The translations under genes and the position numbers were made by a program. Of a stretch of 64,000 bases of DNA, positions 953 to 43,124 are shown one piece after another. This DNA is from Rugalucina vietnamica. Its lineage: Eukaryota; Mollusca; Bivalvia; Lucinida; Lucinidae. Each line of letters begins with the position of its first letter. The stretch's first letter is position 1. Location: the NCBI GenBank assembly GCA_964017185.1, contig OZ024872.1, positions 40,740,188 to 40,804,187 of the forward strand, given 5' to 3'. The notes below the pieces were generated by a model that made no database searches, was not told the DNA's origin, and saw only the letters and a list, made by a program, of their open reading frames with translations.

Positions 953-1173
953 TTACTTTGAAGACATGTTTATATGTGTTATTAAGTGTGTTTTCAAACT
1001 AGATTTCACTGTAAAAGATTTCCCACAGATCTCACAGCTATAAGGTTTTTCTCCTGTATGGATTCGAGTATGTCTTGTTAAGTCCTGTTTCTGTTGGAAA
1101 TACTTTCCACAAGTATGACACACATATTGCTTGCCTCCTGGTGTTGTTGCTCTAATCCTGCCTGAACTGTTAC
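953..1173 (-). CDS. Alternative terminal cassette A: two C2H2 fingers
   Basis: The last cassette in the window. The acceptor is TTTGCATCCTTTTCAG. The leading GT gives Ser, then 72 residues run to TAA. The lead-in is about 16 residues, rich in S, G, R and T. Finger 1 is C-H-T-C-G-K-Y-F with helix QKQDLTR and H-T-R-I-H. Finger 2 is C-E-I-C with helix VKSSLKT and H-L-I-T-H. The tail is I-N-M-S-S-K. No initiator ATG lies ahead of the fingers. More cassettes may lie to the left of the window, since nothing marks an end of the array. Confidence 0.84.
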
Positions 1174-1244
1174 CTGAAAAGGATGCAAAACTAAATGTCA
1201 GATTGTGACATTCATTAAGAAAACTTGCCCATGCAATAAAAAGA

Positions 1245-1510
1245 TCTCTTTTTTTTCAGCTGTAAAAAAACACTAAAATTTGATTAGCATTTTTTGATAA
1301 TTTTATTACTTTTGCTCAAAAGATGGGTTGTGTGTACACATTAGAACCACCTCGGTTCTAACGAGTACCCACAATCTATGTTTTGGACAAAAAATAAGAA
1401 AAACTAGGTATATCCTTGCATACACCCAGTTTTTCTTAAATATAAAACTGCGGTATGAGGAATATACGTTATACCAACATGTTATCGTGATTGCCATGTT
1501 TCTCACCTTA
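1245..1510. mobile_element. Palindromic MITE, family P (copy 1)
   Basis: Contains the family's signature: a CTGTAAAAA end, TTTGCTCAAAA, and GTTCTAACGAGTACCCACAA around a central GAACC/GGTTC inverted repeat, then a CATACACCCAGTTTTTC segment. It lies just upstream of cassette A's acceptor. Non-coding. Confidence 0.65.
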
Positions 1511-1792
1511 ACAACTAGACAGCCAAATTTGAATTATGCTTCCAAATGATTATTTCCACATCTCTCACTAAAGTCCTCAAATGACATGTCAAATATAGTT
1601 TACCCTATTATAATTAAGCTCCAACACTAACAGATCTTTATGATTGTGTAATCAACAATGAAATATCTACCTCATATTGTAAACTTAATTCAAAAGACAG
1701 TCTTGTGGCTTATGCCTGGCTGTAAAAGTGATTTTTATTACGATAAATATTGTCTAAAAACAAAGTTATGATAATCAAAAGAACACTTTTTG

Positions 1793-40336: not shown

Positions 40337-42733
40337 GGTCACACTGACCTATAAGTATTGCAGGGTCAAAGGTCTAGTGATACTTACTCATAATGTGAAA
40401 GAAAAATGATCATATACCCATTCAGTGTTGAGATAAAAAGCAAAATCACTGAACCATGAAATTAGGTCATAGTGACCTATAAGTATGTTTGGGTTAAAGG
40501 TGTGGTCATACTCATTCATAATCAGAAAGAAGTATGAAAAAATACCAACTGAGTGTCGAGATATAAGGCAAAATCACTGAACCATGAAATTAGGTCACAG
40601 TGACCCAGGAATACTTTACGGTCAAAGGTCTTGTCATACTCATACATATCGTGAAAGAAGTATGTTCATATACCAATTGAGTGCCGAGATATTAGGCAAA
40701 ATCACTGAACCGTGAAATTAGGTCATATTGACCTAAGACTACTTTAGGGTCAAAGGTCTTGTCATACGCAAACATAGTGTGAAAGAAGTTTGTTCATAAA
40801 CCACTTGAGTGCCGAGATATAAGGCAAAGTCACTGAACCGTGAAATTAGGTCACAGTGACCTATAAGTATATTGGGGTCAAAGGTCTGGTCATACTCACT
40901 CATAATCTGAAAAAAGCATGAAAATATACTAATTGAGTGTCAAGATATAAACCAAAATCACTGAACCGTGAAATTAGGTCACAGTGACCTAGGACTACTT
41001 CAGGGTCAAGGGTCTTGTCTTACGCAAACATACTTTGAAAGAAGTTTGTTCATAAATCATTTGAGTACCGAGATATAAGGCAAAAATCACTGAACCGTGA
41101 AATTAGGTCACAGTGACCTGTAAGTATATTGGGGTCAAAGGTCTGGTCATACTCACTCATAATCTGAAAAAAGTATGAAAATATACTAATCAAGTGTCAA
41201 GATATAAAGCAAAATCACTGAACCGTGAAATTAGGTCAGTGACCTATAAGTATATTGGGGTCAAAGGCCTGGTAGTACTAACTCATAATCTGAAAGAACT
41301 AAGAAAATATACTAATTGAGTGTCAAGATATAAGGCAAAATCACTGAACCATGGAAAGTAGGTCAACCGACCCTTACCGTCATGACACACAAGTCAGTGT
41401 CACAAAGTCAAAAGATGAATGACCACCATCCTCCTAAGTTGTTTCTATTAGGCTGCGGTCACATAAGAGTAGACTATTCGGGTATACGGTGTACGTTTTT
41501 AAGGGCACGCGAATACTTGAAATCAAACATTATGATTTCTTTATACCGGGTCACATAGGAGGACACTTTTCAAAAAGTTTGTATAGGCGCGTATAGGTGC
41601 GTATAGTATAGTATAGTGGGAATCGAACATGTTCGATTTTCGTATAGCGTATAGTGGTTTTGCTGGTCTGAATTTTGTATTTACACGAGTTTTAGAGCGC
41701 TTTGCTAGAAAACTAAGTTAAAAACAATTTTTACACAGTAAAAGCATATATTTGAATCCTCATAAATATGTTAAAACACCGAATTTGCAACTTTTTCGTA
41801 CTCACGAAAAGAGCACACTGACAGAACGTGCAACTTCTATGTGAACCGCCGTGCCCGTATAGCGTATAGCGAATACCGAATAGCGTATAGCGAATACCAT
41901 ATACCGTATACCGTATATTTCTATGTGAACGCAGCCTTAAGAAATAAAAAGAAAAAAAAATTCGGGGAGTTCTAGATTTTGACCTCTAGCCCCGCCCCCC
42001 TGACTCCGACCCAGAGGTCCGATGTCATGGAACCTAAAGTGTATGAAGTATGAATGCTTTATGATAAGTTGTCAAGATATGCCTCCTTGTAAAAGTTACA
42101 CAGCAGTACATCTATTTTTTAGTGTTCTAGTTTTTAACCTCCAGCCCCACCCCCAGGCATGGACCCAGGGGCCCGATGCCATGGAACGAAACTCAACACT
42201 ACAGGGTACCTATGGTCCGAGTATGAAAGCCCTCTGATAAAAAGTTTTCAAGATATAGACTTCTAGAATACTATATCAAAGAAAAGCCATTATTATTAAT
42301 GGTGTTCTAGGTTTTAACCTCTAGCCCCACCCCCTGGCATGGACCCAGGGATCTGATGCCATGGAATGAAAGCCGACCCTACAGGGTGTCAATGGCCAAA
42401 GTATCAATGCTTTCTGATGAGTGGTTGTCAAGATATGGACTTCTAGAAAACTTTAACATAAGAATTGCCATTTTTGAAGGTGTTCTAGATTTTAACCTCC
42501 AGCCCCACCCCCTGGTCTGGACCCAGGGGCCCGATGCCATGGAATGAAAGCTAACCCTACAGGGTATCTATGGTCCAAGTATGAATGCTTTCTGATGAGT
42601 GGTTGTCAAGATATGGACGTCTAGAAAACTTTAACGCAAGTGTGACGCGCACGGGAACGCGCACGGGAACGGGAACGTGGACGACCGGGGTGACTGCAAT
42701 AGCTCTATGCACTTCCTGCAGTCGAGCTAAAAA
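40337..42733 (+). mobile_element. Element E5, second copy without a 5' end
   Basis: Begins directly after the first copy's TAAAAA with the core unit GGTCACACTGACCTATAAGT, which in the first copy lies at 38167. It ends at arm GCAGTCGAGC (42718-42727). So about 2.2 kb of core plus 3' end was duplicated in tandem, joined at a 3' terminus. It carries the PIF-like insertion at 41451-41936. Confidence 0.8.
41451..41936. mobile_element. PIF/Harbinger-like MITE with TTA target duplication
   Basis: 486 bp, ends GGCTGCGGTCACATA and TATGTGAACGCAGCC (imperfect TIRs), flanked by TTA (41448-41450 and 41937-41939). The matching places in the other two E5/E6 copies (about 39535 and 46918) read straight through TTCTATTAAGAAATAAAAAG, so empty sites exist in the same window. 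The interior has tandem GTATAGCG/ATACCGTATA blocks. No ORF. The class is inferred from the 3-bp TTA duplication. Confidence 0.85.
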
Positions 42734-43031
42734 CAAATCCTTGACCCTAAATGTTTTTTCTTTTTTTTTTCTTTTTTTAATATCTTCCTCAAATATTACT
42801 CACAGTATAGGACAGCTTAGTCACAGCTATGATGGTTTACACAGGTCAACAAACAATAATTAACAATGGCTTGATCTTTTCAGAAATACGAAGAAATTTG
42901 ATGGCCCTTTTATTTAATTAACTATAAAAAAAATACAAACATAAAACATGTGTTAACATAAAACATGTGTTACTGTTTAAGTTTTGCACATTAAATAGGC
43001 AGTGATCTTTCATTACCAAATCAATACATAC

Positions 43032-43124
43032 CAAAAGCTGTATCTGACTCCTGAGGACTGCCTTGAGGATTGCTTTGTACCCTGGAATGTCCTTGAGGAC
43101 CTCTAGATCAGGCCCATGCATCAT
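43032..43124 (-). CDS. Constant exon 1 (first visible coding part) of alternative-terminal-exon zinc-finger gene
   Basis: A minus-strand reading starts at a double ATG (43124) and runs 31 codons to a GTATGT donor at 43031-43030, ending in phase 0. The residues are amphipathic and helix-like, with a run of I/L/V/K and an R-S-Q-I-Q-L-L end. In-frame TAG lies a short way upstream (about 43155), so either this ATG is the real start and the sequence up to the acceptor-like site near 43260 is 5' UTR, or the coding exon begins at an acceptor just after that stop and more N-terminal exons lie upstream. It joins in frame to the exon at 37548, giving a continuous Q-L-L-V-E-Q-L-A helix across the junction, which is the best support for it. 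No BTB/POZ domain is visible here. The 5' boundary is uncertain. Confidence 0.55.

Follow-up and report, generated by a model that had tools for sequence, protein, structure and literature searches.

A bivalve gene with a constant front and an array of 33 candidate zinc-finger terminal exons belongs to a heterodont gene family

The window examined here is a stretch of 64,000 nucleotides of the Rugalucina vietnamica genome (C4:40740188-40804187 in the 1.09 Gb assembly); positions are those of the window, and negative coordinates lie past it, on the 3′ side of the gene. The gene is on the minus strand and opens with three constant exons. Constant exon 1 (43032..43124, 93 nt, donor GTATGT) contains the start codon and the first helix of an N-terminal domain (MMHGPDLEVLKDIPGYKAILKAVLRSQIQLL), and begins at about the same position as the proteins of its relatives. 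Constant exon 2 (37392..37548, 157 nt, phase 0 in and phase 1 out) contains the rest of this domain, a beta hairpin and helices according to the predicted fold of a relative. Constant exon 3 (35695..36312, 618 nt) encodes a Ser/Gln/Pro-rich linker with VKLEP and ELDLEITGVE motifs, and has a GTAAGT donor after one leftover A. The three exons sum to 868 nt, or 289 codons plus one base (A), in a single frame, exactly where the original prediction had placed three constant exons ending with one base over at a GTAAGT donor.

Downstream on the same strand lie eleven terminal cassette exons, each encoding two C2H2 fingers and a stop, at 20269..20465, 19099..19298, 17719..17942, 15438..15649, 12492..12709, 11120..11376, 7810..8021, 5846..6042, 4461..4675, 1952..2166 and 953..1173, the last one inside the window. 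The polypyrimidine tract of the cassette at 15438..15649 is weak, and the acceptors of those at 12492..12709 and 7810..8021 are slightly outscored by an AG ahead of the ORF. All eleven have the acceptors predicted for them (CAG or TAG), and their lengths (197–257 nt) leave remainder 2 on division by 3, as had been claimed; recomputed isoform lengths (354–374 residues) agree as well. A further minus-strand cassette at 10424..10540 is decayed, with only a second-finger remnant (nhmmer E 1.9e-8) and stops upstream.

The sequence past the window on the 3′ side of the gene was examined for cassettes over 100 kb, and then over 30 kb more. It contains 22 extra cassettes on the same strand, from −1470 to −73222. 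The array thus reaches 73 kb past the edge of the window and totals 33 cassettes on one strand. The predicted count of eleven isoforms is one third of this number, an undercount that arises because the edge of the window cuts the array. No additional cassette was found at E < 0.1 from −73222 down to −130 kb. An ORF of a different kind, 513 residues long, lies at −104349 to −102811. As counted with a sequence pattern, all 33 cassette ORFs contain at least one full finger, and 32 contain two. One cassette outside the window is half lost.

To score the acceptors, each AG inside the ORF and up to 60 bases ahead of it was considered for all 33 cassettes, with phase ignored. The top-scoring AG lay within the ORF and in phase 2 for 27 of the 33 (9 of the 11 inside the window), an excess with a binomial p of 1.4e-8 against an expectation of 1/3, which serves as a guide only because the cassette copies are related. 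Three of the remaining six have a good phase-2 site that scores slightly below the best one (12709, 8021 and −28314); the other three have weak phase-2 sites only (−15136, −50519 and −65405). Neither the sequence ahead of the acceptors, searched for a shared selector motif, nor the intron that follows exon 3, searched for a docking partner, gave more than repeat matches and A/T-rich words. The distance from cassettes to poly(A) signals was not significantly shorter than that from random points (p 0.07 for 10 cassettes, p 0.22 for all 33).

For the 31 cassettes with a standard two-finger block, pN was smaller than pS in 465 of 465 pairs (medians 0.30 and 0.75), a pattern of substitution which indicates that the cassettes are under purifying selection and kept as protein. 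Each of the 33 cassettes has its own combination of residues at −1, 2, 3 and 6 in its fingers, the numbering that we take for the DNA-contact positions. In finger 2, contact positions are more variable than the others (2.19 vs 1.28 bits), but in finger 1 they are not (2.09 vs 2.38 bits). Because the contact-site excess is present in one finger and absent in the other, we do not claim diversifying selection.

The front of the protein is an unnamed domain of about 80 residues (KDIPGYK...FLGFCLK), with 34 invariant columns in an alignment of nine sequences. No Pfam match was found in the constant region, and a Pfam search with the N-terminal domain of 20 sequences gave none, save one stray weak match to another family. 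Twenty of the longer ORFs on the minus strand upstream of the gene (43.4–59.7 kb) likewise gave no BTB match. Identity as a BTB gene was therefore rejected, since neither the constant part nor the longer upstream minus-strand ORFs tested contain the domain, and for this reason we do not file the gene with the BTB genes lola and mod(mdg4).

The predicted fold of a relative's front domain runs helix, two strands, helices, and its closest solved folds are the NRF1 dimerization domain and MADS boxes (SRF, MCM1, MEF2). A first fold model (mean pLDDT 67) gave the same leads as the deeper model that replaced it. The NRF1 dimerization domain, according to its authors, itself resembles that of SRF and forms an intermolecular four-stranded sheet (PMC10810270). 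The front domain may share with NRF1 and the MADS box this predicted order of elements, but differs in having no detectable sequence kinship with them and in leaving DNA binding to a separate zinc-finger pair. The Pfam models of MADS and NRF1 matched none of 20 members at E up to 10, within HMMER's filters, and a sequence search of solved structures with the front domain revealed no credible relative (4 PDB matches, no MADS or NRF1 chain). In another search, the at least 60 matches listed all fall at the fingers. On the basis of the fold models, two proteins probably pair by way of this front domain, forming a common beta sheet like that in NRF1 and MADS proteins.

Relatives were collected in three listings: the constant region as query gave 108 proteins at E ≤ 0.001, a profile gave 208, of which 120 were listed, and the front part of a distant member gave 21 at E ≤ 0.01. 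The search depends on shared five-residue words. The best named relative of the constant region has an E value of 8.9e-44. The organism-named relatives in the three listings all come from Mercenaria, Ruditapes, Mya, Dreissena and Mactra, which we take to be heterodont bivalves. This fits a bivalve origin, and the restriction to heterodonts holds for the organism-named matches listed. Identity is 67–80% where the alignment spans about the domain alone, and 34–42% to the named relatives listed where nearly the whole constant region aligns; no close full-length counterpart of this gene is present among the named relatives listed.

The heterodont NCBI proteins have the same N-terminal domain, splice point and two-finger ends, and in most cases the LEIT motif. 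All 129 LEIT-bearing relatives contain [VIL]KxE within 25 residues upstream of it. Isoform numbers in NCBI reach X43 for one Ruditapes gene. Grouping by identical front gave 18 sets with 96 proteins, each of which parts at one point, following '..QGY' in most of the sets. The residue at the parting was S, N, T, K, R, M or I in 96 of 96 isoforms. Codons beginning with A encode these residues, as the leftover A of a phase-1 donor would demand; S and R also have codons that begin otherwise. One two-member set parts one residue later, where both members have N. In the 139 proteins with a front domain, two fingers were counted, with overlaps allowed, in 106, three in 11, one in 9 and none in 12; the last protein, P0118, counts eight and has seven distinct fingers.

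Some of the relatives come from a source labelled 'lgn', which we take to denote assembled sequencing runs. In 16 of its 30 proteins, a front domain and a finger occur together, on contigs of 1.2–3.4 kb. Several of these contigs are almost entirely coding; that of P0016, for instance, has 1107 coding bases out of 1211. The same parts are dispersed across more than 20 kb in the window, and for this reason the short contigs are best read as assembled cDNA. Other relatives, P0002 and P0006 among them, end in apparent intron sequence past the exon-3 donor. The isoform models of relatives and the short contigs both agree with the earlier proposal of one constant region joined to one of many zinc-finger ends per transcript. 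For this animal itself we infer exon choice from the layout of the locus, with the support of its relatives.

Individual ends were compared between species using ten ends on a Ruditapes front, one of them (P0016) taken from a contig, and eleven ends of the matching Mercenaria gene. Seven reciprocal best pairs were found, with 67–83% identity, and the comparable contact residues were identical in five of the seven. As judged by these pairs, single ends are old and conserved between Ruditapes and Mercenaria, so each end probably has its own target. The ends of the Rugalucina gene have best matches of only 42–61% among the ends of relatives.

To investigate the occurrence of the front exons elsewhere in this genome, the exon-2 peptide was searched against the assembly. 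This gave 52 matches at E ≤ 0.001, 50 of them stop-free, at about 49 places including this gene; 19 are on C11, 11 on C14 and the rest are spread across eight other contigs. For 34 of the 35 exon-1 matches, this gene's among them, an exon-2 match follows on that strand, at most 30 kb downstream. Two adjacent exon-1 copies share a single exon 2. In a check of the exon-2 splice sites, 17 of 30 loci, this gene among them, fitted the simple pattern and 13 were not judged; in all 17 fitting loci, exon 2 is directly preceded by an AG, and a GT follows one base past the last codon. The heterodont bivalve family to which the gene belongs is represented in this genome by dozens of paralogous front exons.

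A genome search with one cassette gave at least 98 matches besides the gene's own array, down to E 5e-15, of which 93 are on C11; these counts are lower bounds, with 150 of 3618 candidates scored. The strand tests on C11 used these 93 matches, leaving out the window's own array and weaker or unlisted rows. The matches form blocks of uniform strand: the strand switches 9 times, compared with a mean of 45 and a minimum of 28 in 5000 shuffles. The front exon at C11:50519432 (−) has seven minus-strand cassettes 25–103 kb downstream, the one at C11:31803296 (+) has fourteen plus-strand cassettes beginning 60 kb away, and the one at C11:30424721 (−) has eight cassettes at 58–84 kb. Strand agreement with the nearest front exon was seen for 63 of the 93 matches (random-strand mean 49.5, maximum 65 in 2000 trials), and 30 matches (30.12–30.29, 30.59–30.66 and 31.23–31.34 Mb) have no same-strand front exon nearby in the list. 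At C11:49429000-49478999, a paralogue has exon 2 and no cassette over nearly 50 kb. It is likely from these arrangements that several paralogous loci work like the gene in the window. We say several, and not more, because of the 63 of 93 agreement, the blocks without a front exon and the front exon without a cassette.

Two insect genes offer the closest parallels in layout. The mod(mdg4) proteins have a BTB front and FLYWCH ends. In lola, common 5′ exons, whose product carries a BTB domain, are combined with a single set of C-terminal exons out of 20 or more unique sets, most of them zinc-fingered (PMC1947980). The present gene is like lola in its common front exons and alternative zinc-finger ends, and unlike it in having another domain in place of BTB and 33 ends, all on one strand. 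With mod(mdg4) it shares constant exons followed by many alternative 3′ exons (more than 30 in mod(mdg4)), but some mod(mdg4) ends are on the opposite strand (PMC12692577) and those found here are on a single strand. The description of the locus as lola/mod(mdg4)-style thus holds for the layout, constant exons with many phase-compatible zinc-finger ends, and is not supported for kinship with the BTB genes. Our best reading is that a lola-like choice of terminal exons arose separately, around another and probably dimerizing domain.

We consider it likely that the locus is a transcription unit of about 116 kb producing about 33 zinc-finger proteins, each with the shared front, which is probably dimerizing, and one of the 33 ends. 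A long transcript would begin close to 43 kb or upstream of it. Exon 3 would then be spliced from its phase-1 donor to one of the 33 acceptors, and the remainder would be discarded. The constant part would provide the N-terminal domain, a linker of disordered look and an acidic motif, and each terminal exon its own two-finger DNA-binding end and stop. Going by the predicted fold, the ends may pick the DNA site and the front the partner, and the VKxE and LEIT motifs of the linker may recruit SUMO or co-factors.

We infer that this joining occurs in cis rather than in trans. Trans-splicing, in which cassettes transcribed from their own promoters would be joined to a separate constant transcript, is unlikely here, and is the alternative to be taken most seriously. 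All of the more than 30 mod(mdg4) isoforms arise in this way (PMC12692577), lola employs both cis and trans splicing (PMC1947980), and both the 15 kb that separate the constant exons from the first cassette and the span of 116 kb would be in keeping with it. However, all 33 cassettes share the strand of the constant exons, in contrast to the mixed strands of mod(mdg4) (PMC12692577). The strand-uniform blocks on C11, with their 9 switches against a shuffled mean of 45, also argue against it, and are still compatible with cassettes having their own promoters.

Tandem C2H2 arrays are common, and the decayed cassette in the window and the half-lost one outside it are what might be expected if the cassettes were separate small zinc-finger genes, or pseudogenes, beside an unrelated gene. 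We regard this as very improbable. The ORFs of 17 of the 33 cassettes have no Met ahead of the fingers, which is evidence against separate small genes; moreover, the acceptor phase is kept, the cassettes show purifying selection, and relatives carry ends of this kind behind the same front. Serial splicing of the cassettes into one many-fingered protein, which the seven distinct fingers of P0118 and the 11 of 139 relatives with three would suit, merits the least credence, since a stop ends every cassette reading and 106 of the 139 front-domain relatives have exactly two fingers.

If single-end choice by splicing extends to the paralogues, the heterodonts may, apart from the insects, have evolved a genome-wide system of dozens of genes with MADS/NRF1-like fronts and tens of zinc-finger ends each, a possibility that we put forward tentatively. 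In that case, one animal could command a repertoire of hundreds to more than a thousand DNA-binding ends and far more dimers, a transcription-factor counterpart to the insect BTB system with a different domain at its base. Swappable zinc-finger ends on a constant pairing domain are already known from the insect BTB genes lola and mod(mdg4). In the present case a lineage of molluscs shows this layout with another domain as its front, on a comparable or greater scale and probably at numerous loci. It provides a second independent case for asking why such loci evolve and what many DNA-binding ends serve, and a case for asking how one of thirty acceptors gets chosen.

The original prediction knew of no described mollusc case, and we found none in the titles and abstract openings of published open-licence papers on molluscs and bivalves. 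The passages on zinc fingers in three clam genome papers describe no such gene: one lists zf-C2H2 among expanded domains (PMC11592408), and the other two mention zinc fingers in other connections (PMC7826175, PMC7831173). Surveys can miss genes of this kind because of longest-protein filtering, as in a cephalopod C2H2 survey that retained only the longest protein per gene (PMC12513265), and because of inconsistent isoform names in NCBI. There the relatives are called 'sal-like', 'zinc finger and SCAN', 'Krueppel-like factor luna' and so on, and these names differ from one isoform to the next, so that a single family lies hidden under them.

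Five of the relative proteins sharing the front domain, P0105, P0142, P0143, P0103 and P0144, form a divergent branch with 49-62% identity to P0105. Proteins of this branch carry two fingers at approximately residues 300-350, followed by about 100 further residues, and possibly represent single genes nearer the ancestral form. Two other relatives have unusual ends: P0118 from Mercenaria (804 residues) contains seven distinct fingers, and P0137 from Dreissena lacks a finger, domain PF12012 being given in its listing.

Duplicated front exons were found elsewhere in the genome. On contig C11, exon 1 is present as a tandem pair (31389140-31389220 and 31389298-31389375, plus strand, copies 158 bases apart), with one exon 2 downstream of both. 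On contig C14, three adjacent exon-2 copies occupy 22042271-22043286 (minus strand), two of them containing a stop; this trio is read as a local duplication with decay.

Within the window, related repeats totalling several kb lie inside and flanking intron 1 (38200-47900), with near-identical ORF stretches recurring at, for example, 38569, 39082, 40739 and 46464. ORFs spread over several frames occupy 57676-60173 (plus strand) and by eye resemble reverse-transcriptase pieces, such as a non-LTR retrotransposon would contain; the ORF at 58907-59614 (plus strand) has the reverse-transcriptase motif FADD. Another ORF resembling reverse transcriptase lies at 61204-61896 (plus strand), and one of 425 residues at 62493-63770 (plus strand) bears a single CCHC-type knuckle and appears gag-like by eye.

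Past the end of the cassette array, a Ser/Lys-rich open frame of 513 residues (locus L019, contig C4, window coordinates -104349 to -102811, minus strand) may belong to the next gene as one of its exons.
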